Assembly: GCA_030431255.1 (NCBI GenBank)
Contig: JAUIJL010000018.1
Coordinates: 62,001-126,000, forward strand
Length of the DNA stretch: 64,000 nucleotides
Direction of reading: 5' to 3'
Origin: Thermoanaerobaculia bacterium
GTDB lineage: Bacteria; Acidobacteriota; Thermoanaerobaculia; Multivoradales; J023
The notes beneath the pieces are model-generated. The model did not search any database. It worked only from the letters and a program-made list of their open reading frames with translations, and was not told where the DNA came from. Shown here piece by piece: positions 20,297 through 64,000 of this stretch. Positions within the stretch are counted from its first letter, which is position 1; each line of letters begins with the position of its first letter. Position numbers and translations under genes: made by a program.

Positions 20297-20436
20297 GCGG
20301 AAAACTCAACTTCACAGTCGGTGCGACTTTGTTAGGAATGTCTCGAGAAGCGGATACACTCGGGGATGAGATCCTCGAATCGATGGGAGACCCCGCGGGA
20401 CCACGTCCCGCCGGTCCACGGGAGCTTGCGTTATGA
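20293..20436 (+). CDS. 47-residue ORF bridging the giant adhesin gene and the RHS gene
   Basis: A short ORF beginning MSGKLNFTVG. Its ATG overlaps the stop of the giant gene (ATGA, 20293-20296), and its TGA overlaps the ATG of the RHS gene (ATGA, 20433-20436). This double four-base overlap is the classic layout for translational coupling and is the main argument that the ORF is translated. No clear Shine-Dalgarno precedes it, which fits re-initiation by ribosomes leaving the giant gene. The peptide has no recognisable domain. Its second half is rich in Pro, Gly and Arg, possibly a by-product of the overlapping RHS leader. It could be a small accessory protein or only a coupling device. Confidence 0.4.
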   Translation: MSGKLNFTVGATLLGMSREADTLGDEILESMGDPAGPRPAGPRELAL

Positions 20437-34296: not shown

Positions 34297-34363
34297 CTAG
34301 CAAGGGCAGAGCAGAGAGTTGCAGAGCGTTATGGGTGGAGCGATCGAGAGGAAGGAGCTTGTG

Positions 34364-40300: not shown

Positions 40301-40459
40301 ATCTCAGGACCCATCGTCAACGTCGCCACGGTGGAGGTCTCATCCGCCATGAGTGACTTCGTCCAGGCCGACAACAACGATTATGTGCTCACCCCAACCT
40401 TCCATGACTACATTTTCAGCGACGGCTTCGAAAGCGGAGATCTCAGCACTTGGGAATGA
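34364..40459 (+). CDS. Secreted 14-repeat Kelch protein with gingipain-like (C25/clan CD) domain, copy 1
   Basis: 2,031 residues. ATG 34364 is chosen because GAAGGAG lies seven bases upstream and the signal peptide (MKHVMVWAWVLVGIFFFG) begins there; the paralogue starts in the same way. Residues about 26-706 hold 14 Kelch repeats with the core HTSTLLPSGQVLVVGG, enough for two seven-bladed propellers. An Ig-like domain (about 815-900) and another beta-domain follow. Residues 1040-1443 resemble gingipain-type peptidases: VEHLLLVGDDSVIPM, then a clan CD dyad of His1301 (GGHATH) and Cys1340 (IYAIGCHGG), then GSGYGWGLL. The C-terminus has a DUF11-like domain and the tail FSDGFESGDLSTWE. The likely role is a secreted or surface adhesin-peptidase. 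It is the first gene after the sigma-54 promoter. Peptidase activity is inferred from the motif only. Confidence 0.9.
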   Translation: MKHVMVWAWVLVGIFFFGVVAQGQWQTTGSLEAPRIHHTSTLLPSGQVLVVGGFNGPIGGRFNNSYLLSAEIYDPTTGTWTDAGHLTTPRSQHTSTLLPSGQVLVVGGRNGSGSLSSAEIYDPSTGAWSNTGHLANPRSRHTSTLLPSGQVLVVGGWNGGSLSSAEIYDPTKGTWTNAGNLANPRVDHTSTLLPSGQVLVVGGYSGGGYSDISLSAEIYNPTTGTWTEAGRPATRRFEHTSTLLPSGQVLVVGGYVGSGGSLSSAEIYDPIKGTWTDAGNLANPRRQHTSTLLPSGQVLVAGGYGSGYLSSAEIYDPSTGTWSDAGNLANPRGQHTSTLLPSGQVLVAGGQNGSNIWSSAEIYDPSTGTWSDAGNLANPREDHTSTLLPSGKVLVVGGYNGGYLSSAEIYDPSTGIWSDAGNLANPRSRHTSTLLPSGQALVVGGYGGSGAYLSSAEIYDPSTGTWSDAGHLANPRSRHTSTLLPSGRVLVVGGYSGGGGSLSSAETYDPSTGTWSDAGRLATSRYDHTSTLLPSGKVLVVGGRNGDGSLSSAELYDPSTGTRSYTGRLDIPRYDHTSTLLPWGGVFVVGGRGQETDGDYINWRSAEIYDPSTETWSDAGHLATSRARHTSTLLPSGQVLIVGGVSNGDGQSWSAEMYDPSTGTWNVAGGLGYLRFDHTSTLLPSGKVLVVGGYYGPLPSVEMYASTSPPESRKPIIQSASQIRYGEPLTITGQFRGDSESSGGNTASSAVNFPILHLRALAETAHHTLIIDPQSNFWDAPRTLTVSDLPPTIYPGPHLLTVIVAGVPSEPVLVDMECSVAITSHPVDQAVELGESATFTVQSQGGRFYQWQKNGIDIPGATEPTYTAPPISTNDTAAVYRVVVSNGCAEEYSEPAELTISEGVFPLAELIQPTGGEYWLLSSPDTPDTPNTELITWTMSDNFFICQVELALIYSESAGSCVEPLSPEHGKVLKTFGESGASCTFPGVETTSWLYTLPTELPSGTPGSSYRIRLCVTDPAGNVTQVESLDPFFITDRRNDIHTLLITHSDRIDITPELNIRLQNLINHPNVQGLLIDLADVTDLNDDFYAPWDAGEISANEVLFAQGGIHDYLLSLLDIYPKVEHLLLVGDDSVIPMTRLMDRTLLLPEVAYAPELPPGSTVQQALEANHYLSDDPLATRGSLRPHQLNGRIHLADLNIGRLVETPSEISAAIDAYVAQDGVLDLSQRAPKALVTGYDFLQDSAHSIKGIWSGVYTPEEVDGQLISSGWGVPSSGTSVEERRDLLYNALAQAPGITSLGGHATHAEEGVPGIDRYDLQGLSATDIAALDLSGCVIYAIGCHGGLPVPDEMDLPQSFLGAGAGAYLAGSGYGWGLLQGIGLSERLSVILTRELANPEPQRIGDVIRRSKAFYYDTSPRWDDYDTKVLHQPILYGFPMYIVQTDSWPPVPLTPTGRVGVTTATSNMGLPPHVVGLEINFDFTGPDVYRKFDADGNPTSECPPEGCYYELNGLVSGESDLPLEPYFRYNSSLAGTSQHGILWLGGTYLEEEGWTPVFGRLASNDSGDHGQGSTPPKIFLPPRGPQPLDRGDLPGCPAYDQEVNSLVVTTGAPAQAPGDEVGEYSLHRLDQNIELEVFYFNNLSDPNENCDRQGPSFSNGEPHTVSGTTLHWSVEVEDEAGVWRVVVVWDDEPAARWRPLELSYDTVTDRWTGSLPAADRGELTYMLQAVDNRGNVAWKELDSELPPSGVPLGLAEVFTVPIGEGEVDLELALSVPAQVEAGDAFTLVMNVLNHGPDPAHGLTVSLSLPEDGIYIFGSGDGWTCDLTPPVLDCAGALLEVGESSEIFVQLMAPGYGGTQHFNACVVAAEADPNGPACADADHLVIDESMTDLRIIKEDGGIIAMPGEPIVYSITVTNEGPNPAPDSRVVDIFPPELLNVTWSCTATVGSSCTASGSGHIDDLVDLEVYGTLIYIATAIVDPDVISGPIVNVATVEVSSAMSDFVQADNNDYVLTPTFHDYIFSDGFESGDLSTWE
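34439..36480 (+). repeat. Tandem array of 14 Kelch-coding repeats of about 150 bp (copy 1)
   Basis: Fourteen in-frame repeats of about 145-160 bp. The block encoding HTSTLLPSG is almost invariant at DNA level. LLP is usually written CTT-CTG-CCC here and CTT-CTC-CCC in the neighbouring array, so the repeats resemble their own array more than the other one. Confidence 0.9.
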
Positions 40460-40517
40460 TCGTACACCTGTGAAGAAAACCTTTATTTGACTTAGTGCCG
40501 AAGGGAAGGGACTTGTG

Positions 40518-43500
40518 ATGAAGCAGATAATAGTTATGGCCTTGGTTTTAGTAGCTGTTTTGTGTCTTGGACCGGTGGTGGAAGGGGAGTGGCGGACGAC
40601 GGGTAGGCTCGATGTTGCGCGAGGTGGGCACACGTCGACGCTTCTCCCTTCGGGTAAGGCCCTTGTCGTCGGCGGCTACAATTACAATGACAATGACCGC
40701 TTTTTGTCGAGCGCTGAAGTGTACGATCCGAGCACTGGTACATGGACCGGCGCCGGAAACCTCACCAACTCACGACGTTGGCACACGTCGACGCTCCTCC
40801 CTTCGGGCAAGGTCCTCGTCGTCGGGGGCAGCAGCATTGGCGGCACTTTGTCGAGCGCTGAAATTTACGATCCGAGCACCGGCACATGGACCGACGCCGG
40901 ACACCTCGACAACCCACGAGAGAGACACACGTCGACACTCCTCCCATCGGGCCAAGTGCTCGTCGTCGGAGGCCAAACCGACATCGAGTTGCCGAGCGCT
41001 GAAATCTACGATCCGAGCACCGGCACATGGACCGACGCCGGACACCTCGACAACCCACGATGGGGACACACTTCGACGCTTCTCCCCTCGGGCCAGGTCC
41101 TCGTCGTCGGAGGCTGGAACGGCATCAGCATTTTTTCGAACGCGGAAATGTACGATCCGAGCACGGGTACATGGACCGACGCCGGAAACCTCGACAACCC
41201 ACGAGAGGGACACACATCGACGCTCCTCCCTTCGGGCCAGGTCCTCGTCGTCGGAGGCAGCAGCGGCGGCCATTTGTCGAGCGCTGAAATCTACGATCCG
41301 AGCACCGGCACATGGACCGACGCTGGAAACCTTGCCAACCCACGAGCTCGTCACACGTCGACGCTTCTCCCCTCGGGCAAGGTGCTCGTCGTCGGAGGCA
41401 ACAGCATCGGTGGCTCTTCGTCGAGCGCTGAAATCTACGATCCGAGCACCGGCACATGGACCGACGCCGGAAACCTCGACAACCCACGAGAGAGACACAC
41501 GTCGACACTCCTCCCATCGGGCCAAGTGCTCGTCGTCGGAGGTATCGGCATCGGCGGCACTTCGTCGAGCGCTGAAATGTACGATCCGAGCACGGGTACA
41601 TGGACCAACGCCGGAAGCCTCGACAACCCGCGATCTGGTCACTCATCGACGCTTCTCCCCTCGGGCCGGGTCCTCGTCGTCGGAGGAACCAACGGCGGCG
41701 ATTTGTCGAGCGCTGAAATCTACGATCCGAACTCGGTTACATGGACCGACGCCGGACACCTCACCACGCCAAGACGTTGGCAGACGTCAACGCTTCTCCC
41801 CTCGGGCAAAGTCCTCGTCGTCGGAGGCTACTCCTTCGGCTATTTGTCAAGCGCTGAAATCTACGATCCCAGCTCGGGTACATGGACCGACGCCGGACAC
41901 CTCCTCGCCACCCCACGATATTGGCACACGTCGACGCTTCTCCCCTCGGGCAAGGTCCTCGTCGTCGGAGGCAACAGCATCGGTGGCTCTTTGTCGAGCG
42001 CTGAACTGTACGATCCCAGCACCGGCACATGGACCGACGCCGGACACCTCGACAACCCACGAGGGGGCCACACGTCGACGCTTCTCCCCTCGGGCAAGGT
42101 CCTCGTCGTCGGAGGCCAGTCCGTCCTCGAGTTGTCGAGCGCTGAAATGTACGATCCCAGCACCGGCACATGGACCGACGCCGGACACCTCGACAACCCA
42201 CGATCTGGTCACACGTCGACGCTTCTCCCCTCGGGCAAAGTCCTCGTCGTCGGAGGCCACAGCATCGGCGGCACTTTGTCGAGCGCTGAACTTTACGATC
42301 CGAGCACCGACACATGGTCCGACGCCGGACACCTCACCAACCCACGACTTGGTCACACCTCGACGCTTCTCCCATCGGGCCAGGTACTCGTCGTTGGAGG
42401 CCAAAGCATCGGCGGCACTTTGTCGAGCGCTGAACTTTACGATCCGAGCACCGACACATGGTCCGACGCCGGACACCTCACCAACCCACGATATAGGCAC
42501 ACGTCGACGCTTCTCCCCTCGGGCAAAGTCCTCGTCGTCGGAGGTTGGAACCTCAGCGAGAGCTATTTGTCGAGCGCTGAAATTTATGAGATGCCCTCCC
42601 CGCCAGAATCCAGAAAACCAGTCATCCAATCAGCATCCCAGATCCGCTACGGCGAGCAGCTCACCCTCACCGGTCAGTTCCGAGGGGACTCCGAAGCGAG
42701 CGGCGGAAACACACAAAATTCTGCTGTCGACCATCCCATCATTCATCTCCGTTCCTGGGATGGAACAGAGCACCACACCCTCATCCCCGACCCCCAAGGC
42801 AACTTCTGGGACGCCCCTAGAACCCTCACCGTTAGCGAGCTCCCCAATACCATCAACATCGGCTCTCACCTCTTGACCGTCACCGTCGCCGGGGTCCCTA
42901 GTGAGCCGGTCCTCGTCAACTTGGAATGTAGCCTCGCCGTCACCGCCCATCCAAGCGATCAAACAGCCTCCTTGGGAGAGAGCGCCACCTTCACCGTCCA
43001 GTCCCAAGGCGGACGCTTCTACCAGTGGCAAAAAGATGAAGTCGACATTCCCGGCGCCACCGGGCCCGTTTATTCCACCCCCCCGATCACCGCCAACGAC
43101 GCTGGTACGACCTACCGCGCTCTCGTCGACAGCGGCTGCACCAACGAGTATTCCGAGCCAGCTGAGCTGACCATCAGCGACGATACCTCTCCCCAAGCCG
43201 AGATCACCCACCCAATAGGCGGCGAATACTGGCTCCTCTCCTCCCCGGAAACACCGGACACCCCCAACACCGAGCTCATCACTTGGTCGATGAGCGACAA
43301 CGTCTTCATCTGCGAAGTCGAAGTCGCCCTCATTTACTCCGCAGACACCGGCAGCTGCGCAGATCCTCTAGAACCCGAAGATGGAGAGATCTTGACGACC
43401 TTCAGCTCAGGCGCCTGTACCTTCCCGGGATTGGACAGCAGCAGCTTCCTCTACACCCTCCCCATCGAGCCTCCTTCGGGCGTTCCTGGATCGAGCTACA

Positions 43501-46500
43501 AGGTTCGTGTTTGCGCCACCGACCAGGCGGGCAATGTCACTCAGGAGGAAAGCCCGAATCCCTTCTTCATCACCGATCGCGGAGACGACATCCGCACCCT
43601 CGTCCTCACTCATTTCACCAGAATGGAGGGGGAGATCACTCCCGATCTCCTGCTCGATCTCCAAAACCTGATCCACCATCCCAACGTCCAAGGCCTGCTC
43701 ATCGATCTTGAAAGAGTCACTGCCATCCATGACCTTTACAACGCCTGGGACCAAGGTGACGCCACCGCCAACGACGTCCTCTTCGCCGAAGGCGGAATCC
43801 ACGATTACCTCCTGAACCTGCTCGAGATCTACCCCCAAGTCGAGCACATCATGCTCATCGGCGATGATCGGGTCATCCCCATGGCTCGCCTCATGGATCG
43901 AACCACCCTGCTCCCTGAGGTCGCCTATGCGACCGAGCTGCCAGCCCACAGCACGGTTCAGCAAGCCCTCGAAGCCAACCACTACCTCAGCGACGACCCG
44001 TTGGCCACTCGCGGCTCTCTGCGTCCCCATCAGCTCGACGGCAATATCCACCTCGCCGACCTCAACATCGGTCGCCTCGTGGAAACGCCTGATGAGATCA
44101 GCGCCGCCATCGATGCCTATATCGCCCAAGACGGAGTGCTCGATCTTTCCCAAAGAGCTCCCAAAGCCTTGGTGACGGGTTATGACTTTCTCCAGGATTC
44201 CGCCCACAGAATCAAAGATTTTTTGAGCAGTTTCTACACCCCGGAGGATGTGGACGGCGAGCTGATCAGCGGTGATTGGGGCGTGCCGACCAGTGGGACC
44301 AGCGTCGACGAACGCCGCGATCTGCTCTACAACGCCCTCGCCCAAGCTCCCGGCATCACCAGCCTGGGCGGCCATGCCACCCACGCCGAAGAAGGCGTTC
44401 CGGGCATCGATCGCTTCGACCTGCAAGGTCTCTCCGCTGCGGACATCGCCGCCCTCGACCTTTCTGGGTGCGTGATCTATGCCATCGGCTGCCATGGCGG
44501 ACTGCCAGTTCCCGGCGAGATGGATCTACCCCAAAGCTTCCTCGGTGCAGGAGCCGGTGCTTACTTGGCGGGTAGTGGTTACGGCTGGGGATTACTCCAG
44601 GGCATCGGCCTCAGCGAGCGTCTCTCCGTCATCCTCACTCGAGAGCTCGCCAAGCCGGAGCCCCAAAAGATCGGTTCAGTCATCCGCAGGAGCAAGGCGT
44701 TCTACTACAACACCTCTCCCCGTTGGGACGATTACGACACCAAGGTCTTGCACCAACCGATTCTCTACGGCTTCCCCATGTACATCGTGCAAACCGACGC
44801 GCCACCCGCATTGAGGCCGCCAATGGCAGGGGTCGGCGTCACCACCACTGCATCGAAGACGGGGCTCCCGCCGCACGTCGTCGGCCTTGAGATCAACTTC
44901 GACTTCACCGGTGAGGACGTCTACCGAAAATTCGACGCCGACGGCAACCCCACCGAAGACTGCCCTCCAGAAGGTTGCTACTACGAGCTCAACGGACTCG
45001 TCAGCGGTGAGTCGGACCTACCCCTTGAGCCCTACTTCCGCTACAACTCCAGTCTCGCGGGAACCAGCCAGCACGGCATTCTCTGGCTCGGTGGAACCTA
45101 CTTGGAAGAAGACGGTTGGACTCCAATTTTCGGCCGGCTCGCCTCCAACGATCCCGGCGATGACGGCCAGGGATCGACCCCGCCGAAAATCTTTCTGCCG
45201 CCCCGTGGCCCGCAGCCCCTCGATCCCGGTGATCCCTCGGGTTGCCCGGCCTACGATGAGGAGGTCAACAGCTTGGTGGTCACCACCGGCACTCCGGCCC
45301 AAGCTCCGGGGGACGGTGTCGGCGAATATAGCCTCCATCGACTCGACCAGACCCTCGAGCTCGAAGTTTTCTACTTCAACAACCTGAGCGATCCGAACGA
45401 GAACTGCGACCGTCAAGGTCCGACCTTCGGCGATGCCGAGCCACACACCTTGAGCGGTACGACCTTGCATTGGTCGGTCGATGTCCAAGACGACACAGGT
45501 GTTTGGCGGGTCGTGGTGGTTTGGGACGACGAGCCGGCAGCTCGGTGGCGTTCCCTCGAATTGACCTACGACGCCGTCACCGACCGCTGGCTAGGCAGTC
45601 TGCCCGCGGCCGGTAGGGGAGAGCTGACCTATATGCTGCAAGCCGTCGACAACCGCGGCAACGTGGCCTGGAAAGAGCTCGACTCCGAGACACCTCCTTC
45701 GGGCGTCCCTCTCGGCCTGGCCGAGGTCTTCACCGTGCCAATCGGCGAGGGGGAAGCCGATCTCGATCTCTCGTTGGACGTCCCCCCGCAAGTCGAGGTC
45801 GGTGATTCCTTCACCCTAGCCGTGAGCTTGCTCAATCATGGCCCCGATCCGGCTCATGGTCTCAACACGAGCATCAACCTGCCTCCGGACGGAATCTACC
45901 TCTTCGATGGAGGCGACGGTTGGACCTGCGACCTCACACCTCCCACCCTCACCTGTACCTGGGCTCAGCTCGAGCCTGGCGAGAGCTCGGAAATCTTTGT
46001 GCAGCTCATGGCTCCCGACTATGGCGGCACGCAGCACTTCAGCGCTTGCACCGTCGCCGCCGAGGCCGACCCCACGGGTCCCGCCTGCGCTGATGCCGAG
46101 CACTTGGTGATCGATGAGAGCATGACCGATCTGCGGATCATCAAAGAAGACGGTGGCATCGTCGCGATGCCCGGCGAGCCGATCGTCTACTCGATCACGG
46201 TCACCAACGAAGGACCCAACCCAGCGCCGGACAGTCGCGTGGTCGATATCTTTCCGCCTGAGCTGCTCAATGTGACCTGGTCCTGCACGGCCACGGTCGG
46301 ATCTTCGTGTACGGCTTCGGGAAGCGGGAACATCGACGACTTGGTCGATCTCGAGGTCAACGGTACGTTGATTTATTTCGCTACCGCCATCGTCGATCCC
46401 GACGTCATCTCAGGACCCATCGTCAACGTCGCCACGGTGGAGGTCTCATCAGCCATGAGCGACTTCGCCCAGGCCGACAACAACGACTTTGCCCTCACCC

Positions 46501-46565
46501 CAATGTTCTACGACTACATCTTTAGTGATGGCTTCGAAAGCGGGGACCTCAGTGCCTGGGAGTGA
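40518..46565 (+). CDS. Secreted 14-repeat Kelch protein with gingipain-like (C25/clan CD) domain, copy 2
   Basis: 2,015 residues from ATG 40518; GTG 40515 is also in frame, and AAGGGA lies about ten bases upstream. It is a tandem paralogue of the preceding gene, only 58 bp away, colinear over the whole length and almost identical in long C-terminal stretches. A signal peptide (MKQIIVMALVLVAVLCLG) is followed by 14 Kelch repeats, an Ig-like domain, a beta-domain, the gingipain-like domain with His1286 and Cys1325, a DUF11-like domain and the tail FSDGFESGDLSAWE. The signal peptide and Kelch regions have diverged most, suggesting changed binding specificity with a conserved enzymatic core. It is probably transcribed from the sigma-54 promoter at 34281, since no promoter is evident between the genes. 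Confidence 0.9.
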   Translation: MKQIIVMALVLVAVLCLGPVVEGEWRTTGRLDVARGGHTSTLLPSGKALVVGGYNYNDNDRFLSSAEVYDPSTGTWTGAGNLTNSRRWHTSTLLPSGKVLVVGGSSIGGTLSSAEIYDPSTGTWTDAGHLDNPRERHTSTLLPSGQVLVVGGQTDIELPSAEIYDPSTGTWTDAGHLDNPRWGHTSTLLPSGQVLVVGGWNGISIFSNAEMYDPSTGTWTDAGNLDNPREGHTSTLLPSGQVLVVGGSSGGHLSSAEIYDPSTGTWTDAGNLANPRARHTSTLLPSGKVLVVGGNSIGGSSSSAEIYDPSTGTWTDAGNLDNPRERHTSTLLPSGQVLVVGGIGIGGTSSSAEMYDPSTGTWTNAGSLDNPRSGHSSTLLPSGRVLVVGGTNGGDLSSAEIYDPNSVTWTDAGHLTTPRRWQTSTLLPSGKVLVVGGYSFGYLSSAEIYDPSSGTWTDAGHLLATPRYWHTSTLLPSGKVLVVGGNSIGGSLSSAELYDPSTGTWTDAGHLDNPRGGHTSTLLPSGKVLVVGGQSVLELSSAEMYDPSTGTWTDAGHLDNPRSGHTSTLLPSGKVLVVGGHSIGGTLSSAELYDPSTDTWSDAGHLTNPRLGHTSTLLPSGQVLVVGGQSIGGTLSSAELYDPSTDTWSDAGHLTNPRYRHTSTLLPSGKVLVVGGWNLSESYLSSAEIYEMPSPPESRKPVIQSASQIRYGEQLTLTGQFRGDSEASGGNTQNSAVDHPIIHLRSWDGTEHHTLIPDPQGNFWDAPRTLTVSELPNTINIGSHLLTVTVAGVPSEPVLVNLECSLAVTAHPSDQTASLGESATFTVQSQGGRFYQWQKDEVDIPGATGPVYSTPPITANDAGTTYRALVDSGCTNEYSEPAELTISDDTSPQAEITHPIGGEYWLLSSPETPDTPNTELITWSMSDNVFICEVEVALIYSADTGSCADPLEPEDGEILTTFSSGACTFPGLDSSSFLYTLPIEPPSGVPGSSYKVRVCATDQAGNVTQEESPNPFFITDRGDDIRTLVLTHFTRMEGEITPDLLLDLQNLIHHPNVQGLLIDLERVTAIHDLYNAWDQGDATANDVLFAEGGIHDYLLNLLEIYPQVEHIMLIGDDRVIPMARLMDRTTLLPEVAYATELPAHSTVQQALEANHYLSDDPLATRGSLRPHQLDGNIHLADLNIGRLVETPDEISAAIDAYIAQDGVLDLSQRAPKALVTGYDFLQDSAHRIKDFLSSFYTPEDVDGELISGDWGVPTSGTSVDERRDLLYNALAQAPGITSLGGHATHAEEGVPGIDRFDLQGLSAADIAALDLSGCVIYAIGCHGGLPVPGEMDLPQSFLGAGAGAYLAGSGYGWGLLQGIGLSERLSVILTRELAKPEPQKIGSVIRRSKAFYYNTSPRWDDYDTKVLHQPILYGFPMYIVQTDAPPALRPPMAGVGVTTTASKTGLPPHVVGLEINFDFTGEDVYRKFDADGNPTEDCPPEGCYYELNGLVSGESDLPLEPYFRYNSSLAGTSQHGILWLGGTYLEEDGWTPIFGRLASNDPGDDGQGSTPPKIFLPPRGPQPLDPGDPSGCPAYDEEVNSLVVTTGTPAQAPGDGVGEYSLHRLDQTLELEVFYFNNLSDPNENCDRQGPTFGDAEPHTLSGTTLHWSVDVQDDTGVWRVVVVWDDEPAARWRSLELTYDAVTDRWLGSLPAAGRGELTYMLQAVDNRGNVAWKELDSETPPSGVPLGLAEVFTVPIGEGEADLDLSLDVPPQVEVGDSFTLAVSLLNHGPDPAHGLNTSINLPPDGIYLFDGGDGWTCDLTPPTLTCTWAQLEPGESSEIFVQLMAPDYGGTQHFSACTVAAEADPTGPACADAEHLVIDESMTDLRIIKEDGGIVAMPGEPIVYSITVTNEGPNPAPDSRVVDIFPPELLNVTWSCTATVGSSCTASGSGNIDDLVDLEVNGTLIYFATAIVDPDVISGPIVNVATVEVSSAMSDFAQADNNDFALTPMFYDYIFSDGFESGDLSAWE
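40593..42590 (+). repeat. Tandem array of 14 Kelch-coding repeats of about 150 bp (copy 2)
   Basis: Fourteen in-frame repeats with the same core as the first array but their own synonymous signature (CTCCC in LLPS; GAAATCTACGATCC more often than GAAATTTACGATCC). This pattern points to homogenisation within the array after the gene was duplicated. Confidence 0.9.
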
Positions 46566-54734: not shown

Positions 54735-55760
54735 CTACTTCATTTCTGAGATATTGAAAATTGGACTGTTGCGCTTTGCGTCCCAGAACACCGGAAGCCC
54801 GATATCCTTCAGATCGTCCCAGGCGACCCTTTCGTTTCTCCTATCGACGGACTGATGGAGCCGAAGGATCGCAGAACCCTGACCCTTCTGAGCCAGCTGA
54901 GCCTTCACCGCATTGAGATTGAATTTCAGGCGTGCGGAACAGAACACAGCCCTAGACTGGGAGAGGAGTCTCTGGAGCTCATCCTTAGCTCCGGGAAACC
55001 GAGACACCAAGTCGTTGTATTTATCGAGCGGGAAACGTCCTCTGTGGTACAAAAATGCTCTGTTTTCATCAAGCCAAAAATCGGGCGATAACCGCGCCAA
55101 GTCCCGGGGGCTCGACGAGACAAAAGTGCGATGTTCCAACTCACTCTGATGCTCGCCTAGGAGCTCGTCAAAGAAGTACTCAGACTTCCGGTGCAGAGTC
55201 TCCTCGACCCCACAACTGGCGGCGATCACTGCCTCTGATCCAGACCTCGCAAAAATCCAAGGGCCGGTAGAGATCAGATCGGCCTTGGTGACCACCACGG
55301 TCAGCCGGTTCAAGAAATTCCTTCTGCTTTCACCGTCGAGTCTCTCAACGATGGACTCAAAAGCAGCGGCGTCGAGCGTCATGGCCCTCGTGTCGGCTTG
55401 GAAGGCCCATAGGACGACATCACACTCCTCCGCATACTTGGCGTACATATCCAAGTACGCGGAGTCCGCCTCCCCCGACTCGCCAATCCCCGGCAAGTCC
55501 CAGAAGGTCACTAGGTGCCCTTCTCTGTCGACGCTCTCATGGGACTGCGGTTCTTTGGTGCAGGGTTTGACGTCGTCGACGTCGAACTCCGTGCCGAAAA
55601 TGGCATTGGTGAGGGACGACTTCCCGCACCCGGTTTGGCCGAAGATGGCCGCCGACAGAGGCTTGCTTTGCTCGGCGCTGATTCTCCGCCGAACCGACCC
55701 TAGATCGAGCCCGCCGAAGGTCTCCATTTTGTCGAGAATGTCCATGATCTTTAGTTTCAC
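54735..55760 (-). CDS. P-loop GTPase (Era/dynamin-like, 50S-binding GTPase superfamily)
   Basis: 341 residues from GTG 55760, eight bases after GGAGG; the GTG overlaps the stop of a 23-codon micro-ORF (GTGA). Residues 38-165 carry the GTPase motifs: G1 GQTGCGKS (41-48), G3 DLPG (88-91) and G4 TKAD (158-161), plus a likely switch I Thr in CTKE (68). The C-terminal 150 residues are helical and charged with no named domain. GTPases of this type often pair with DUF697-like hydrophobic proteins, and one is encoded just upstream (56225). In conflict systems they act as NTP-dependent switches. Likely a membrane-peripheral regulatory GTPase; the target is unknown. Confidence 0.88.
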   Translation of the reverse strand: MKLKIMDILDKMETFGGLDLGSVRRRISAEQSKPLSAAIFGQTGCGKSSLTNAIFGTEFDVDDVKPCTKEPQSHESVDREGHLVTFWDLPGIGESGEADSAYLDMYAKYAEECDVVLWAFQADTRAMTLDAAAFESIVERLDGESRRNFLNRLTVVVTKADLISTGPWIFARSGSEAVIAASCGVEETLHRKSEYFFDELLGEHQSELEHRTFVSSSPRDLARLSPDFWLDENRAFLYHRGRFPLDKYNDLVSRFPGAKDELQRLLSQSRAVFCSARLKFNLNAVKAQLAQKGQGSAILRLHQSVDRRNERVAWDDLKDIGLPVFWDAKRNSPIFNISEMK

Positions 55761-55828: not shown

Positions 55829-55869
55829 CTTGATTTCTTGAGTCGAACGGGCGACTTTTCGGTGCTCAT
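55825..55869 (-). CDS. 14-residue micro-ORF overlapping the DUF697-like gene stop
   Basis: Reads MSTEKSPVRLKKSR. Its ATG overlaps the DUF697-like stop (ATGA, 55866-55869) and its TGA overlaps the next micro-ORF start. It is basic and too short for a domain. The case for translation rests on the chain of overlaps only. Confidence 0.3.
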   Translation of the reverse strand: MSTEKSPVRLKKSR

Positions 55870-56225
55870 CCCCACTTTTCTTCACAATAGTGAATGATGG
55901 CCTCTCCCAAAGCCTTGACAATAGTGGCTGCGATGGCCGGCTTGATGGCGAACGCGAAGGGGCCTGCGAGAATGGCCGCCTCGAGAGCGGCGATCTTGCC
56001 GGCGACGGCGCCCAGGCCGATATGTGCCGCCACCGCCTTGGCATCCGTGTGGGAGAACTCGGCTCGATAGATCCCGCCGATTTTGTAGGCCATCGCGACT
56101 TCTTGAACCGTCAACGCGGCGGTGGCGGCCCCCGGGATAAGCGCCGTAGCGATGACGACCCCGACCGCAGCCGCGGTATTTCCATTGACCCACTCTCGGG
56201 CTTTCTGCTGTTGTTCGTATGACAT
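55866..56225 (-). CDS. DUF697-like hydrophobic protein, partner of the GTPase
   Basis: 119 residues from ATG 56225, with AAAGGG about nine bases upstream. The pattern of small residues and hydrophobic helices (AAAVGVVIATALIPGAATAAL, then VQEVAMAYKIGGIYR, then AILAGPFAFAIKPAIAATIV in two or three helices) with a terminal IIHYCEE resembles DUF697, normally found fused to or beside GTPases of the YcjX/Era type. Such proteins are thought to insert in membranes. Here it is a separate gene directly upstream of the GTPase. The pair could form a GTP-gated membrane effector. It is the first clear gene of its unit; nothing obvious precedes it for about 200 bp. Confidence 0.75.
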   Translation of the reverse strand: MSYEQQQKAREWVNGNTAAAVGVVIATALIPGAATAALTVQEVAMAYKIGGIYRAEFSHTDAKAVAAHIGLGAVAGKIAALEAAILAGPFAFAIKPAIAATIVKALGEAIIHYCEEKWG

Positions 56226-56712: not shown

Positions 56713-59601
56713 TTACCGCTCGGCGACGTGTTCTGACCGATTTCGGGAGTCGGCACAGAAAGGGAACGAGTCCCAGTCGCCCTGGAGCTGAAACGGAGCC
56801 CACTGGTGCTTCGCACTCCCGCTGAGCCACCCAGCCACCTGAGCTTGGCGGAGCGCCGCCGCCGGACTCAGACACTCCCCGGCCAGACCGGCATAGAAAC
56901 GGGCCATCAGCTGGCGTGTGGCTCGATCCTCGACGGACCAGAGACTGATCAGGACCCGCGGGGTTCCGGCGTTCATGAAACCCCGGGTCAAGCTGATCAG
57001 ACCCTCCCCCTCGAGATCCTCACCCAAACCCGTGCCGCAGGCTGAGAGCACCGCCAGCTCGGCGGGCAGCTCCATGCGGTAGAGTTCTTGCAGACCGAGC
57101 ATTCCATCCACGGCCTGGCCGTCCGGCGTGATCTGGGAGAGAACCAGCCCGAATGGAGCCTGGCCACCGGTTTCGGCATGGGTCGCGAAATGGAGAATTC
57201 GATAGTCCCCGAGCACCCCGGAGAGAACGCGTTCGCAGCTGGCGTCAAAACCATCGAGCAAGAGACTCGAGTCATCCGGCATCAAAGCCATGATCGCGAG
57301 CGCTTCCTCGCCGGCGCCGAAAAGTCTCGCGTATGAAGGGTCGTGAAGGTCCCCGGAACGAGAAACCGCCGGCTGTCCCCCGTGGCTACTGCCGAGGCGC
57401 TCGTCGCGGGGACCATAGACGGGATCGACAATCAAGGCGATATGCCCCGGAGCTACAGGGCGCCCGGCAGTCATGCGCCTTAGTAAACTCAGCACCGATG
57501 CAGAAGGCAGATTGACGATCTCGTGATCGGCGATCAGCGGTCTCGGGGTGGGTTCGGGCGCGGGATTTTTAGACGCAGAGTTTTCGGGCGAAGGAAGTGC
57601 TCCGAATGGCAGGCGCTGAAGCTGTCCGTCGACCACAAAGATCAAGCGCTGACTGCTCCGGAGATGCGCCGCGAGGGGTTCGATCAAGATGCGGCTCAGG
57701 CTGGCGGCGCGGCTTTCTTCGAGCGGAGTGCTCCACGGTCCGTTCGAAATAGGATCTGAAAGCAGCTCGTACCACGACTCGATGAGCGGCTCGATTTCCG
57801 ACCGCGGTGGAAGAGAGTAGCTAGCGAGCCCCTCAAGCGAAAGCCACCAAAGGAACGACTCGTCTTCGGACAGGTGGTAAAAAGCAAAAGCCGAGTCTTC
57901 GTCGAGCAGGCTCCGCAGCGACTCGAGCGTTTCGACTTTGGGGGGAGGGAGGATGTCGGACTGGGCTCCCTCGATGGCGAGAAGGTCCCTGAGGCGACGC
58001 GCGCGGGTCAGCTCGAAGACCTTGAGCGCTTTCTGATCCCAGCCCATGCCCGGCTCTTGCCGATGAAGAGTCATGCGCACTTGGATCAACAATCGATAGC
58101 TGTCGAGGCGCTCGGCTAGGAAATATGGAAGTAGATCCGAGAAATCACCAGCCCGTCGTTGCGCTTCGATGGTGTCGACGGAGCGTCTCAGGTAATCCTC
58201 GGCGGCGGCGAGCCTCTGCCGGCGAATCTCGAGCTGTCCCAAGAGTTGCAGCACCTGGGCCACGGACCCGAGCGCACCGGCGCGCTCGAGCTCGGCTAGG
58301 GCCCCGTGACAATAGCCGTAGGCTCGCTCGAAATCTTCGGCGGCGAGCTCTAGCCGGCAGAGGTTGCCGTCTAGTTGGGATCGCCAGAACGGATGGTCCG
58401 CGACGGCTTCGGCGACTCGTTGGTAGAGGCGGCGAGCATGCTCGAGGTCTCCGAGGGCGAGATTTACCGTCGCCAGTCGGTCGAGGGCGCCGATATGGTC
58501 GGGCAGGAGCTGGAGGGAGGCTTCGAGCAGCTCGCGCGCACTCTCGTTCTCGTCGCTCAAATGATGCCACCAGCCGAGGGCTCGGTAGATCTGTGCCTGC
58601 AACTCGGACGACTCTTCACCATCGAACTGCCCGACAGAGGTCTGGATCTCTTCAAAAGTCGTCCGCGCCTCGTCCATGGCGCCGAGCTTCATCAGGCATC
58701 GAGCATGGTTCATTCGAACATGGACGCGATCGAGCGGCGCTCCGACCTGGCCGAACCATTCGGCCGCCATCGAGTAGCCGGCGATGGCTTCCGCGAGCTC
58801 GCCGCGGGAATCGTAGTTGAGCGCGCCGAAGTTCATCGCCAGTGCACGGCCGTAGAGATCATGTCCGTACATCGCCGCGAGTCCGGCGGCCCGTGCGTCT
58901 ACCTCGGCGGCCTCCAGCTCGCCCAGGTCCCGATGGCGTCGACTGCGGTGAAGCAACAGACGAGACTTGAGGGCCTGGTGACTTCGATCTCTGAGTAATT
59001 CCACAGCTTCACCGAGGAGGGCCACGGCGGCCGGCAAATCACCGCTACGGCGTTCGGCTTCCGCCAGCGCGTCGAGCGTGATAGCCCTCCAATTCGGCGG
59101 CGATGGACCTTCTAGCGCCTGTTTTAGGTCGCGCTTGGCATCGTCCACAAGCCCCTGCTCGAGATCCGCTCTGGCGGCGTGGGCTTGCCAGTATCTTCTA
59201 CTGAAATCCTTGCCCCGGTCCGAGACGTCAAAACGGATATTCGCCTCACCGTCGCCAGCCACGGCGCGTATTTCAATATCGACCGAGCGTGATTCGTCAG
59301 CGGCCCACCACAGCTCCTCGACCACGCGATCGCCGTATGGGGAGTCCACTTCGGGGCCGTCGTCGATGCTCAGTGAAAGATCCAGCCCCCGCTGCTGTGC
59401 GCTAATGTGCACCACTGTGCCTTGCGCCACCGAGAGTCTGTAGCGCTCCGTTTCTCCCGCCGCAAGGTGAATCTCTAGGCTGGATCCGTAGCTCACCCGG
59501 TCGACGGGCGCACAAGACAAGCACGTCAGGCCTAGAAAGAGCAGGCAAAAGCCTGCTTTCGACCCTAGGGCGCGACTTGGAGCACGAACCGACGGGGCCA
59601 T
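56713..59601 (-). CDS. Exported TPR-CHAT peptidase-domain protein
   Basis: 962 residues from ATG 59601, overlapping the anti-sigma-like gene by 37 bases. The N-terminus has a signal-like segment (GFCLLFLGLTCLSCAP) with a poor lipobox, so export or lipid anchoring is likely but not certain. Residues 40-130 resemble a PPC-type beta-domain (GETERYRLSVAQGTVVHI). TPR units fill about 140-540. The CHAT domain follows (about 640-950), with the caspase-type dyad His808 (HFATHAE) and Cys855 (LSACGTG), and the terminal SLWSVEDRATRQLM region typical of the family. CHAT proteins are caspase-related peptidases. This one ends an operon that encodes a TIR-ECF sigma fusion and an anti-sigma-like protein. Confidence 0.92.
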   Translation of the reverse strand: MAPSVRAPSRALGSKAGFCLLFLGLTCLSCAPVDRVSYGSSLEIHLAAGETERYRLSVAQGTVVHISAQQRGLDLSLSIDDGPEVDSPYGDRVVEELWWAADESRSVDIEIRAVAGDGEANIRFDVSDRGKDFSRRYWQAHAARADLEQGLVDDAKRDLKQALEGPSPPNWRAITLDALAEAERRSGDLPAAVALLGEAVELLRDRSHQALKSRLLLHRSRRHRDLGELEAAEVDARAAGLAAMYGHDLYGRALAMNFGALNYDSRGELAEAIAGYSMAAEWFGQVGAPLDRVHVRMNHARCLMKLGAMDEARTTFEEIQTSVGQFDGEESSELQAQIYRALGWWHHLSDENESARELLEASLQLLPDHIGALDRLATVNLALGDLEHARRLYQRVAEAVADHPFWRSQLDGNLCRLELAAEDFERAYGYCHGALAELERAGALGSVAQVLQLLGQLEIRRQRLAAAEDYLRRSVDTIEAQRRAGDFSDLLPYFLAERLDSYRLLIQVRMTLHRQEPGMGWDQKALKVFELTRARRLRDLLAIEGAQSDILPPPKVETLESLRSLLDEDSAFAFYHLSEDESFLWWLSLEGLASYSLPPRSEIEPLIESWYELLSDPISNGPWSTPLEESRAASLSRILIEPLAAHLRSSQRLIFVVDGQLQRLPFGALPSPENSASKNPAPEPTPRPLIADHEIVNLPSASVLSLLRRMTAGRPVAPGHIALIVDPVYGPRDERLGSSHGGQPAVSRSGDLHDPSYARLFGAGEEALAIMALMPDDSSLLLDGFDASCERVLSGVLGDYRILHFATHAETGGQAPFGLVLSQITPDGQAVDGMLGLQELYRMELPAELAVLSACGTGLGEDLEGEGLISLTRGFMNAGTPRVLISLWSVEDRATRQLMARFYAGLAGECLSPAAALRQAQVAGWLSGSAKHQWAPFQLQGDWDSFPFCADSRNRSEHVAER

Positions 59602-60362
59602 GGCGTGCCGTCCGGACTTGAGAGAATCACCTCATGTCGACCCGGGGAAAGCGAGTCTGGCGGCAGGAAGAAACTCAGGTGACCTGCAGACCGGGGCTCG
59701 AGTCCGCCGATCTCCAGAATGACCTCCTGTGGTTCCTTCGTGATGCTTGCCGTGTACGGGCCTGCGGGAAAAGGCCGCTCGTCGGCCAGCGTAATCAAAG
59801 CTCCATTGCTGATCGACACTTCGCCCGAGCTCGGGCTGCGAAGGGGATTGCCGACCTCCTGGAGCGCCAAGATCGGCACGTTGGCGATGGTTTCTTGCAG
59901 GCCAGGAGCCACCCGGTCACGACGCTCGCTGATCCCCCAGCCGATGGCGACCAGAATCAACGCCGCCCAGGGCAAGGTGATCGACAGTTCCCGCCATCCG
60001 ATGGAGGGCCGCGCTCGCTCGGCAGCCTCCCGCCGGCTGCGTGTCACTTCATCCTCGGGCGGCGAACCCGGCGAATCAGAGGATTCGGCGTCGTCTGCTT
60101 CGTCTGCTTCGTCCGCCTCTGGCAAGCTCGCTAGCACGGACAGCAGGGCGCTATCGATCTCCTCTGCGTCGACGTGTAATGCGTCGGTACCTGCCGACGG
60201 CATCGGTTCGAGATCGTAACCGCGCAGAGCGGCCACCAATTCTCGACTTTCGGGACAGATCGCGAGGTGGTCTTCGATCTCCCGTGCGAGTTTGGCGGTA
60301 GCGCGGCCTTCGACATAGGCGACGAGATCGGCCGGTGCGGGCTGGGACTCAGAATCAGCCAC
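59565..60362 (-). CDS. Anti-sigma-like membrane protein with degenerate zinc motif
   Basis: 265 residues from GTG 60362, seven bases after AGGGG; the start overlaps the sigma gene stop by eight bases. The N-terminal helical region has LVAYVEGRATAKLAREIEDHLAICPES, here split at Arg, matching zinc-binding anti-sigma domains except that the second Cys of H-x3-C-x2-C is Ser (HLAICPES). One membrane segment is near 135-155 (LPWAALILVAIGWGIS). The outer part ends in a beta-domain (GHLSFFLPPDSLSPGRHEV). It is likely to bind the ECF part of the upstream gene product and to relay a signal from outside, possibly the CHAT protein's state. Confidence 0.82.
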   Translation of the reverse strand: MADSESQPAPADLVAYVEGRATAKLAREIEDHLAICPESRELVAALRGYDLEPMPSAGTDALHVDAEEIDSALLSVLASLPEADEADEADDAESSDSPGSPPEDEVTRSRREAAERARPSIGWRELSITLPWAALILVAIGWGISERRDRVAPGLQETIANVPILALQEVGNPLRSPSSGEVSISNGALITLADERPFPAGPYTASITKEPQEVILEIGGLEPRSAGHLSFFLPPDSLSPGRHEVILSSPDGTPWPRRFVLQVAP

Positions 60363-61407
60363 CGGGGTCCCCTTTCTGACCTTCTGCAGTTGGACTCAGC
60401 AAGCGGGACAGGCGCGCCTTGGCTTTTGAAAGCGTCACTCGAACGGTTTGCAGCGACACTCCTTCTGAGCTTGCGATCTCTCGATATTTGAAGCCATCGA
60501 GCCACCGCGTCAAGCAGCGCCGCTGCAGTGGCGAGAGGCGTGAGTGCATGGCCCGCAAGCTTTCCGACTGCTCCAGGCTCACGAGCCGCAAGAGCGGATC
60601 CCGCGGGGGGCTCGGCCACGGGCTCGCCGCCTCGGGTTGGTCCTCGGCGGGAGACGCGTCCAGTGTTTGCTCGCCGTAACCTCGCTTCTCGGTTCCGTAG
60701 GTGTCTCGCAGCCAGTTGCGCCAGAGATTAGCCGCGACCGTCAGGATCCAGGACCGCGGAGGCTCCTTGCCTTCGAATTTGGGTAGGCTACGCAGCACTC
60801 GCATCATGGTTTCTTGGGCGAGATCGCGGGCCAGCTCAGGGTCGCTTTTTTGCCCGAAGAACCGCACGAGCAGGGGGTAGTGAGCCTTGAAAAGGTTGTT
60901 GAAGATTTTCTCGGTTTCGCTATTGAAAGCGCTGCCCACCGTCGTTCGCTCGCTCGGGAATCGCTGAGCGATATGGAAGCGTAGGTGGATAAAGAACGCG
61001 TCGATTTCGTCCTGGTTGCCGGCGGCTAGCGGTCGGCCCGCGAGCGACCATAATTCGAAGTCGTGGACCGGCTGCGGCGGGCTGTCTTTGGCGGGAGCAC
61101 CCCTGGCGGTAGCGTCTCTTGCGGTGGCGCCGCCAGCCTCCTCCAAGGGCTCATTTTCTACCAAAAGCGGTAAGAGATCGAGGCCAGCCGCGCGCGCGTC
61201 GTCTGAGAGTCGGCTCAAGCCGGCGTCAGTCGAATTCGGGGAAACCAAAACCAAGGCGAGATCGGTCTGATTGCGTAGGAGATCCGGGGACTCCACGTAG
61301 TCCGCAATCGGCCGTTCGTGAACGGCGGCTAGACCGTCTAGCCGCGCCACTATGCGATCCTTCCAAACGGAGTCACTTGGGTGAAAGTAGAGGTCAATAG
61401 CAGCCAC
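60355..61407 (-). CDS. TIR-like domain fused to an ECF sigma factor
   Basis: 350 residues from GTG 61407 (GGTGAGC just upstream). Residues 1-65 look like a TIR-type fold: AAIDLYFHPSDSVWKDRI then TDLALVLVSPNSTDAG, then LLPLLVEN. A low-complexity Ala/Thr/Pro linker (about 92-112) leads to a second short region. Residues 160-340 form an ECF sigma: region 2 (ARDLAQETMMRVLRSL), then PPRSWILTVAANLWRNWLR, then region 4 (LSPLQRRCLTRWLDGFKYREIA, split by a turn, and VSLQTVRVTLSKAKARL). It heads the operon with the anti-sigma-like and CHAT genes. A TIR sensor or enzyme fused to an ECF sigma is unusual. The catalytic Glu of TIR NADases is not obvious, so a binding role is as likely. Confidence 0.82.
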   Translation of the reverse strand: MAAIDLYFHPSDSVWKDRIVARLDGLAAVHERPIADYVESPDLLRNQTDLALVLVSPNSTDAGLSRLSDDARAAGLDLLPLLVENEPLEEAGGATARDATARGAPAKDSPPQPVHDFELWSLAGRPLAAGNQDEIDAFFIHLRFHIAQRFPSERTTVGSAFNSETEKIFNNLFKAHYPLLVRFFGQKSDPELARDLAQETMMRVLRSLPKFEGKEPPRSWILTVAANLWRNWLRDTYGTEKRGYGEQTLDASPAEDQPEAASPWPSPPRDPLLRLVSLEQSESLRAMHSRLSPLQRRCLTRWLDGFKYREIASSEGVSLQTVRVTLSKAKARLSRLLSPTAEGQKGDPGG

Positions 61408-61623: not shown

Positions 61624-63999
61624 CTAGAGCAAGCCCTTGAGCCAGTCGAGCCAGCTTTTTTCGGGGGGCTTAGCCTCGACCGGCGCTGTGTCCTGTTCGT
61701 TGATCTCAAGCCCGGCGGCTTTGGCCTTGGCGACCCAAAAGTTTCCAGCCCCGATGTCCTGTGGGATACCTTGCCCTGCGAGCAGCTGCTGACCCAGGTA
61801 GTACATGCTGAGCGCGGCTCCTTGCTCGGCGGCCCGAGCATGCCAGAAGGCTGCCTGACTATGGTTTTGAACCACGCCTTGGCCTTTGAAATAGCAAATC
61901 GCTAGGTTCGTCTGACCCCAAGCGCTGCCCGCCTCAGCGGCCCGGAGATACCAGTGGGCTGCCGCCGGATAATCCACAGGGGCGAATTCACCGTTGTAGA
62001 AGGAATGCCCGAGCTTGACCATGCAATCGAAATCGCCCGCCTCGGCGGCTTGCCTCAGCCACCCGTGGGATTCCTTGGCGTAGCCGAGATCGGCCAAGAA
62101 TTTCGCAAGATAGGCAGGGGCGTTCTTGTTACCGTACTCGGCCGCGCGTTGCCAAAGCTCGACGGTCTTGGCATGGTCTTTATCGACGACGTTGCCATCG
62201 GCGTAGAGGGCTCCGAGGAGGACCATGCCTTCAGTATTTCCACGCTCTACGGACTCACGAAGCCAGTCCAGGCTTTCCTTCGCAGCGGGCGGGGCCACAT
62301 CCAGTAGGGCGCTACCTAGATCGTACATAGCCAGCCCGTCACCGGTCTCTGCAGCTTGTCGAAAGTATGCGATCGCCTCGGGGATCGAAGGTTCGGCCCA
62401 GGTCCCGAAGCGCGCGGCGCGTCCGAGGGTGATCAGCGCAGCGGGGTAGCCTTTTTCGGCGGCCATTTTGAACCATCGCTTCGCTTCCTCGAGATCTTTC
62501 TCGGTGCCTTGGCCAAGTTCGTATTTGCGGGCGACGCTTTGCATGGCAATCGCATTGCCATATTTGGCCGCACAAATGGAGAGTTGCAAACCTTGCTGGT
62601 GTCGTGCGCCGCCGGGGTGGTCCGGCAGGCTAGCTAGCCAGCCGAGGAAGTGGATCGCTATGGGTTTCGCTATGGGTTCCAAGTAGCTCATCGAGCTATT
62701 CTTCTCAGAATCGAGTTGGGCGATGAGTTCCAAGAATCGGCGAGCTCCGACGATGTCTTTCGGCCGGCCCAGGCCTTCACCCAAGACGAGGCTCCAGATA
62801 AGGAGAGCCTCGGCATCGTTTTGCTCAGTGGCAAGTCGTTCTAACTCATCTAGATGGTCCGCAAGATATTGATCTGCCCGGGGGCGGTCGACGGCGAATC
62901 CACAAGAGCCATAGAGCAAGAGACTAGCTAGCCAACAGCGTTCGACCGATCCGCCCAAATCGGCTGCTTCGCGGTAGCTCAGCCGTGCCACCTTGTAGTC
63001 CACTTTTTCTTCGCCAAGCCCATAGTGCAAAACGAACCCGCGGCGGAAGAGAACTCTGGCCTCTTGATTTTTGGTGAACTCGGTTTCCTCTTTAGCCAGC
63101 TCGTTCCATTTGTTCTGCCACCACCAATGCAGCTCACACCTCGAAGCCCTAGTGTGGTCGAGCTTCTCGATTTCGGCGATCAAGCGGGCATGCTCTTGAT
63201 CGACCTCATCGACGATCAAGGCGGCCCTGATTTGATCTCGAAAGCGACTATCCAATGGCGACTCCAAGTGCTCATTGAGCTGCTCCAGGGCAAGATCTCG
63301 ACGCTCCCGGAGCTTTCTGCGCTGAATCTTTTCCGGGCAACTCGACGCGAGCGGCAGCGATTTCAGCTTACCTTCCAATTTGACGGAGAGTCCCAGATCA
63401 TCAAGTTTTTGTTCTCGATTCCAGGCGCTCACCTCAGCCTCGACATACCTCACCAATGTGTCAGGCGTGATGAAGCCTTCAGCCTGCTGCACGGCTCCGC
63501 CCCTCAGTCCCCTCAATATCGCCGCGGAGAATACGCCGTTTCCCTCGATAGGATCATCGTACGTCAAGCCACCCTTCGGAACGGCCGATATCGAAACGAG
63601 CCCTTTGGCCTCAGTGAATGCCTTCAAGAACTCCGCTTCGGGATTGAAGGCCGCGCCGCGGGGATAATGTTTAACGACGATCTCGTGACAGGCATCCACG
63701 ATCAGCAGCTTTCTCTGCGCTTTACTCTTCTCGATGCCTTGTTGCAGGCTAGGAATTTCGAGTCCGGTGACCCTCAACATTGAACGGTCCGTGTCCGTGG
63801 CCGCGAGGCATTGGACTTGGCCGTCCGAAACACCGTGCGTGGCAAAAGAAACGATCAGCAATCCTTCCTTTTCGACCGTGGAACCTAGCTGGTTGAGCTC
63901 ACTGAGGATCTTATTTCTGCTCGCCCGGAAACGGTGTGCACCACGCGACGACAGAATCTTCAGTCGATAGCGGGATTCTCTCTTCTGCGGTTCGCCGTC
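61624..63999 (-). CDS. Caspase-like (C14) protein with Sel1-type repeats, 5' partial
   Basis: The frame is open to the window edge, so the N-terminus is missing; TTG 63861 is internal to the caspase fold. In the visible part (791 residues) the clan CD dyad is present: His55 in LLIVSFATHG and Cys104 in LLIVDACHE, followed by SAVPKGGLTYDD and GVFSAAILRGL as in bacterial metacaspase-like proteins. A charged helical region (about 200-320) precedes numerous Sel1-like repeats (about 330-770; e.g. GYPAALITLGRAARFG and MYYLGQQLLAGQGIPQD). It is upstream of and co-oriented with the TIR-sigma/CHAT operon, with a 216-bp gap in which I see no gene. Likely a cytoplasmic death or signalling protease. Confidence 0.88.
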   Translation of the reverse strand, partial: DGEPQKRESRYRLKILSSRGAHRFRASRNKILSELNQLGSTVEKEGLLIVSFATHGVSDGQVQCLAATDTDRSMLRVTGLEIPSLQQGIEKSKAQRKLLIVDACHEIVVKHYPRGAAFNPEAEFLKAFTEAKGLVSISAVPKGGLTYDDPIEGNGVFSAAILRGLRGGAVQQAEGFITPDTLVRYVEAEVSAWNREQKLDDLGLSVKLEGKLKSLPLASSCPEKIQRRKLRERRDLALEQLNEHLESPLDSRFRDQIRAALIVDEVDQEHARLIAEIEKLDHTRASRCELHWWWQNKWNELAKEETEFTKNQEARVLFRRGFVLHYGLGEEKVDYKVARLSYREAADLGGSVERCWLASLLLYGSCGFAVDRPRADQYLADHLDELERLATEQNDAEALLIWSLVLGEGLGRPKDIVGARRFLELIAQLDSEKNSSMSYLEPIAKPIAIHFLGWLASLPDHPGGARHQQGLQLSICAAKYGNAIAMQSVARKYELGQGTEKDLEEAKRWFKMAAEKGYPAALITLGRAARFGTWAEPSIPEAIAYFRQAAETGDGLAMYDLGSALLDVAPPAAKESLDWLRESVERGNTEGMVLLGALYADGNVVDKDHAKTVELWQRAAEYGNKNAPAYLAKFLADLGYAKESHGWLRQAAEAGDFDCMVKLGHSFYNGEFAPVDYPAAAHWYLRAAEAGSAWGQTNLAICYFKGQGVVQNHSQAAFWHARAAEQGAALSMYYLGQQLLAGQGIPQDIGAGNFWVAKAKAAGLEINEQDTAPVEAKPPEKSWLDWLKGLL

Positions 64000-64000
64000 C

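Follow-up and report, generated by a model that had tools for sequence, protein, structure and literature searches.

An ECF sigma factor with a possible TIR-derived N-terminal domain in an anti-sigma/TPR-CHAT operon of a Thermoanaerobaculia bacterium

The 64,000-nucleotide stretch of Thermoanaerobaculia DNA analyzed here (the window) encodes an ECF sigma factor with an additional N-terminal domain, next to genes for an anti-sigma-like protein and a TPR-CHAT protein. The combination of ECF sigma factor, anti-sigma factor and TPR-CHAT protein is a recurrent module, and the front domain is an orphan with no credible relative in the sets that we searched. The reading that we favor, with a rough probability of 0.45, is that the sigma factor of this module carries a fused TIR-derived domain without the catalytic glutamate, which would serve as a non-enzymatic input or scaffold.

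The sigma factor gene and its operon

The sigma gene (60355-61407, minus strand) is a single open frame of 350 codons, from which we estimated about 38 kDa for the full-length protein. The first possible start is the GTG at 61407, and an in-frame TGA lies two codons 5' of it. The encoded protein comprises the following parts:

60958..61407, minus strand: N-terminal α/β domain, residues 1-150, a probable catalytically dead TIR-like domain (suggested by alignment, pairwise scores and guided model)
61072..61143, minus strand: low-complexity insert rich in Ala, Gly and Thr, residues 89-112 of the front domain (translation; pLDDT below 50 at residues 86-122)
60703..60894, minus strand: sigma-70 region 2, residues 172-235 (Pfam PF04542, Sigma70_r2, 8.7e-13)
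60409..60564, minus strand: sigma-70 region 4, residues 282-333 (Pfam PF08281, Sigma70_r4_2, 4.1e-11)

ECF sigma factors are defined by the presence of regions 2 and 4 without region 3. Both regions were matched, region 3 was absent from the listed matches, and TIGR02937 spans residues 169-335 of the protein (1.9e-22). The identity of the ECF half is certain; an earlier reading of this DNA, made from the sequence only, had described residues 160-340 as a standard ECF sigma factor, as the Sigma70_r2, Sigma70_r4_2 and TIGR02937 matches bear out. The sigma factor was left unmatched by PADLOC.

The same-strand gene order in the stretch L039, which partly runs past the window, is, in the direction of transcription, caspase-like, GTPase, caspase-like with Sel1 repeats, sigma, anti-sigma, TPR-CHAT, small protein and GTPase. 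The neighbors lying at least partly in the window are:

61624..64000, minus strand, continuing past the window end (869 aa, L039 7625-10234): caspase-like and Sel1 repeat protein (Peptidase_C14 1.1e-5 and Sel1 8.5e-35, both above cut-off)
59565..60362, minus strand: putative anti-sigma factor with a degenerate zf-HC2 domain (2.5e-4, 21.5 bits against a cut-off of 22.2), one hydrophobic span (by eye) and a C-terminal domain
56713..59601, minus strand: TPR-CHAT peptidase-like protein (CHAT 1.5e-54, TPR_12 6.5e-16)
55866..56225, minus strand: small protein whose DUF697-like match is weak and not significant (E 0.063)
54735..55760, minus strand: GTPase, MMR_HSR1/dynamin/IIGP-like (MMR_HSR1 4.4e-13)

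The sigma and anti-sigma genes share 8 nucleotides, and the anti-sigma and CHAT genes share 37 nucleotides. With its zf-HC2 match just under the cut-off, the gene following the sigma gene in the ECF operon is probably anti-sigma-like. Genes of this kind are frequent, though not universal, in ECF operons. By eye, the TPR-CHAT protein bears an N-terminal lipoprotein-like signal as well as His and Cys motifs. In EACC1 two-gene systems, a small transmembrane EACC1 protein is encoded 5' of the caspase gene. The in-window part of the caspase-Sel1 protein matched NF047832 ("caspase, EACC1-associated") at 1.9e-15, with 56.9 bits where the cut-off is 140, and the gene located 5' of the caspase-Sel1 gene encodes a GTPase with a DUF697-like tail (just under cut-off). 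In PADLOC, the "caspase" model matched a 647-aa protein (3e-18), and the GTPases weakly matched the LeoA/LeoBC models. A gap of 216 nucleotides lies 5' of the sigma gene, in which a scan for sigma-70-type promoters found none. Upstream of the operon, a divergent gene (L039 15113-16369, plus strand) encodes a P-loop NTPase-like protein, a possible regulator, whose C-terminus matches a winged helix (Trans_reg_C 1.1e-4, below cut-off).

Relation of the front domain to TIR domains

The sequence-only reading had assigned the TIR-like part to the first 65 residues and quoted three motifs. All three motifs are found in the front domain, the extent of which is instead about 150 residues, including the low-complexity insert at about residues 89-112. 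Searches with Pfam (E ≤ 10) and PHROG returned no match for this domain. Profiles built from TIRs likewise gave no significant match: the front domain scored 0.5 bits with the profile of 36 TIRs from the same phylum (rank 88 of 2501 scored sequences) and 0.1 bits with that of a 14-member TIR subfamily (L157-L170; rank 72 of 2375).

Pairwise comparison gave a stronger signal. The mean global Z of the front domain against the 14 TIRs was 2.23, equalled by none of 1893 other natural windows (the only one of 1894 above the query was the query's own frame, which one of the remaining 1893 still overlaps); this panel was picked after a tail motif had been spotted by eye, and the decoy windows come from six frames, so that many are not real proteins. 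Against 20 general TIRs, the score of the whole domain was reached by 1 of 14 receiver-like and none of 150 other windows (1/164), and that of the linker-cut form by 2 of 14 and 8 of 150, respectively (10/164). An earlier pairwise test with the 36 TIRs gave the linker-cut form a mean Z of 1.05, compared with a mean of -0.01 and a maximum of 0.57 for 40 windows. A panel of ten viral TIRs, two of them identical, yielded a weak Z of 0.60 that 172 of the 1893 windows reached.

In profile alignments of the whole domain, the query score was reached by 93 (14-TIR), 39 (36-TIR), 325 (viral) and 118 (all TIRs) of 700 windows. When the insert was cut out, the corresponding numbers were 9 (14-TIR), 58 (viral) and 62 (36-TIR) of 900. 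Most TIR panels lean positive, while a profile of 30 receivers gave no signal (Z -0.11). Taken together, the sensitive sequence tests lean suggestively toward TIR, reaching about 1 in 100 at best except in the 14-TIR and 20-TIR pairwise tests.

One alignment of the front domain with viral TIRs was collinear over the first two thirds, another with six viral TIRs covered the whole domain, and a third, with the domain trimmed shorter, was poor. In the six-TIR alignment, an SPN motif and a HERPI stretch fall in TIR columns, and TIR-type motifs are located at strands 1-4. The catalytic glutamate of enzymatic TIRs resides in the third helix. The query lacks a glutamate in the corresponding column, as the sequence-only reading had proposed, and the stretch preceding the third helix is deleted. 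The TIR-type motifs in strands 1-4 might suggest an active NADase or a nucleotide-cyclising enzyme on the sigma factor, which we nevertheless consider very improbable in view of the substituted catalytic column and the deletion preceding it. Two further searches carry no weight for the assignment. A PDB profile search with a seven-row viral-TIR alignment found TIRs but was discarded as evidence on the query because six of the seven rows are TIRs themselves, and a phmmer match of the front domain to a transmembrane protein in the PDB (E 0.11) was dismissed as chance.

The TIR fold is a five-stranded parallel α/β fold with a characteristic TIR strand order. AlphaFold2 without a guiding alignment modeled the whole protein with a mean pLDDT of only 38. 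Guided by the alignment with six viral TIRs, it produced a model with a mean pLDDT of 67 and a pTM of 0.65, in which a confident β/α core with four clear strands is predicted. The pLDDT of the guided model ranges from 74 to 88 for ten-residue blocks within residues 1-80, drops below 50 at residues 86-122 and returns to 78-82 over residues 131-150. The guided model is not independent proof of a TIR fold because its alignment consists of TIRs and was picked from three candidates after all three had been inspected.

Fold comparison of the guided model gave a divided picture. Foldseek found no match at E ≤ 0.001, and its top 50 rows contained sugar isomerases, receivers, flavodoxins, deoxyribosyltransferases and a single TIR (4c7m, rank 10). 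The viral library also returned mixed folds, with a deoxyribosyltransferase first and one TIR at rank 11. Re-examination of the Foldseek matches with VIA-align was led by TIRs, the titles of the top 16 chains (Z 10.9 to 9.8) being 11 TIR, four SPARTA and one short Argonaute. SPARTA subunits carry TIR domains. In the same comparison, receivers appeared from Z 9.8, within about 1 of the best TIR (10.9), and deoxyribosyltransferases at 9.6. Structure prediction and fold search, which the sequence-only reading had put forward as the check, favor TIR in the VIA-align ranking of an alignment-biased model, with mixed Foldseek matches and receivers close behind.

These mixed folds, together with the failure of the profile searches to find a TIR and the small distance of receivers and deoxyribosyltransferases in VIA-align, could also be explained by another flavodoxin-like α/β domain (receiver-like, nucleoside-deoxyribosyltransferase-like or a new family) that acts as a ligand- or partner-binding switch. 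We regard this alternative as unlikely: the receiver profile gave no signal while most TIR panels were positive, the SPN motif and the HERPI stretch occupy TIR columns, and a receiver-type aspartate was not seen by eye where the third strand ends. The TIR identity of the front domain is favored, as a suggestion from alignment and modeling, and is unproven. Of the TIR-ECF fusion that the sequence-only reading had proposed, the ECF half stands. The TIR half finds support in the collinear alignment, the 14-TIR scores and the TIR-led match of the guided model, and is weakened by the lack of a significant profile match, the weak viral panel, the mixed Foldseek result and the alignment bias of the model.

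A recurrent module and an orphan domain

In the genome from which the window derives, a CHAT match follows on the same strand, 2.6-3.2 kb downstream, for eight of the 29 ECF matches (E ≤ 0.01) and for seven of the 11 best. Pairs were counted within 6 kb downstream, where random placement of CHAT matches would be expected to give about 0.013 per ECF. Two relatives (G001 and G026) have the same succession of ECF, anti-sigma and TPR-CHAT genes followed by a caspase-like gene, the anti-sigma gene of G026 being recognized by eye. Two others (G003 and G006) have no CHAT match near the ECF gene within the stretches taken; the ECF-CHAT partnership is therefore not universal. A further relative (G018) was left out of this comparison, as its contig ends too early.

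The 10.2 Mb genome contains 44 CHAT-domain matches in total, whereas at the same threshold, such matches occur in only one of 14 control genomes. In G001, a weakly Peptidase C25-like protein (L046 2695-4038, minus strand; 2.3e-4, below cut-off) is encoded between the CHAT and caspase-like genes.

The front domain did not recur with the module. Within its own genome, it gave only two weak hits outside the sigma gene (E 0.06 and 0.64). The remaining 28 ECF matches begin at residue 147 or later, and no copy of the front domain was detectable at any of them. Among 59 relatives, all front-domain matches had E > 0.01 except the sigma gene itself. No relative was found by scanning genome contigs with exact short patterns or by tblastn of the domain against plasmids. 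Across the class (148 genomes), ECF matches at E ≤ 1e-22 occur in five other genomes, and each of these five matches starts at query residue 148 or later. From at least 266 confirmed ECF relatives, among at least 594 stretches, we took the best 80, of which five have a nominal extension of at least 100 aa, one of these crossing a masked stretch; when the frames at these 80 loci were compared with the front domain by blastp, no match had an E value below 3. Front-domain matches in five other genomes, among 396 of the phylum (E 5.7e-5 to 0.003), were judged to be chance: by eye, the frames of four of them encode tryptophan synthase alpha, and that of the fifth looks non-coding. As judged by titles and the beginnings of abstracts, none of the open-licence papers listed deals with a TIR-sigma fusion.

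The open frame also contains a possible second start codon:

60937..60939, minus strand: GTG codon 157, from which a bare ECF sigma factor might be translated (sequence)

This codon could start an ECF sigma factor of ordinary length; therefore, both protein forms may exist. An ordinary ECF sigma factor made from codon 157, with a front part that is a lineage-specific, poorly folded extension or rarely translated, would account for the starts of the five ECF matches in the class, for the absence of the domain from the other genomes searched and for the low confidence of the unguided model. However, no clear ribosome-binding site precedes codon 157 by eye, and the front ~155 residues resemble coding sequence in their periodicity and codon usage and show an α/β pattern. 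The in-frame codon-usage score of the front part is 0.21 bits per codon versus 0.149 for the ECF half, and its GC1/2/3 values (0.70/0.46/0.68) are similar to those of adjacent genes. As controls for the coding score, training genes were cut into 156 true-frame windows, 26 of which fell below the front part, and 780 wrong-frame windows, 42 of which equalled or exceeded it; one antisense frame of the front stretch also scores 0.191 bits per codon. On balance, we find it distinctly improbable that the bare ECF form is the whole explanation, and keep to the fused TIR-derived domain.

A possible circuit and known counterparts

In the circuit that we infer beyond the gene order, the anti-sigma factor would keep the sigma factor membrane-bound. 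In response to a signal, a caspase-like protease, which could be the CHAT protein or either of the two C14-type proteins, would become active and cut the anti-sigma factor, provided that both proteins lie on the same side of the membrane. The freed sigma factor could then turn on a stress or defence regulon. The non-enzymatic TIR-like domain may bind a partner or a nucleotide ligand, or self-assemble, and would make release or activity of the sigma factor dependent on a second, cytoplasmic input, e.g., from the caspase-like or GTPase partners. The direct link from a TIR module to promoter choice that the sequence-only reading had drawn is likewise hypothetical.

A bolder version, which we consider possible and rather doubtful, sees an immune-type TIR scaffold on the sigma factor, whose assembly or ligand binding, together with cleavage of the anti-sigma factor by CHAT or caspase, would recruit RNA polymerase to a defence regulon. 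A single operon would thereby unite TIR, caspase and GTPase with transcription. If true, a TIR-type signal would act via promoter choice rather than by NAD+ destruction, and the protease freeing the sigma factor would come from the sigma factor's own operon. The ECF/anti-sigma/TPR-CHAT module would then correspond to the Csx29-Csx30-sigma circuit while operating independently of CRISPR.

In that circuit, as outlined in the excerpted text of PMC10028731, the TPR-CHAT protease Csx29 cuts Csx30, an inhibitor of the ECF-like sigma factor CASP-σ. The type III-E CRISPR module and the operon described here share the joint encoding of a TPR-CHAT protein, a sigma inhibitor and an ECF-like sigma factor (PMC10028731, in part). 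In contrast to the type III-E module, the CHAT protein of this operon bears, by eye, a signal of the export type, the anti-sigma factor has a hydrophobic span, the sigma factor has an extra front domain, and the cleavage by CHAT is hypothetical. Type III-E modules include Cas7-11 and a CRISPR array; no Cas7-11 was noticed in passing among the ORFs of at least 200 aa in L039. A membrane-type anti-sigma factor beside its ECF sigma factor, with protease-like genes in the operon, is also reminiscent of DegS/RseA and RsiW proteolysis as touched on in the same excerpt (PMC10028731), but the candidate protease here is a caspase-like CHAT protein.

A role as conflict systems has been proposed for caspase systems that contain ECF genes (PMC8195603, in part). 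The EACC1/EACC2 and TRADD-N systems of Kaur et al. likewise combine caspase domains, ECF genes or an ECF-like HTH, and TPR proteins, whereas a TIR-sigma fusion is absent from the portions of their descriptions at hand (PMC8195603, PMC7159879), and neither an EACC nor a TRADD-N domain was noticed in passing in our operon. Control of sigma activity by a fused domain is known from ECF41, ECF42, ECF36 and ECF238, although their extensions are SnoaL-like, TPR, Cys-rich or transmembrane, and mostly C-terminal; according to the same partial source, extended ECFs lack an anti-sigma factor, in contrast to the present sigma factor with its anti-sigma-like neighbor (PMC8999054).

With regard to the domain itself, collinear motifs and the predicted fold relate it to the TIR subfamily L157-L170 and to scaffold TIRs such as MyD88, in which enzyme activity has been lost. 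It differs from both in the lack of a significant profile match, the deletion before helix 3 and the low-complexity insert.

Elsewhere in the same genome, a second ECF sigma factor is joined to a defence-type domain, namely a C-terminal Mrr-type restriction endonuclease (L041 7501-8658, plus strand; Mrr_cat 3.4e-23). The window also encodes, on the plus strand, a 2255-residue RHS-repeat protein with DUF6531 and a transglutaminase-like domain (20433-27200), as well as two adjacent frames of about 2000 residues each (34319-40459 and 40515-46565), both with Kelch repeats and a C-terminal DUF11, which form an apparent tandem pair.
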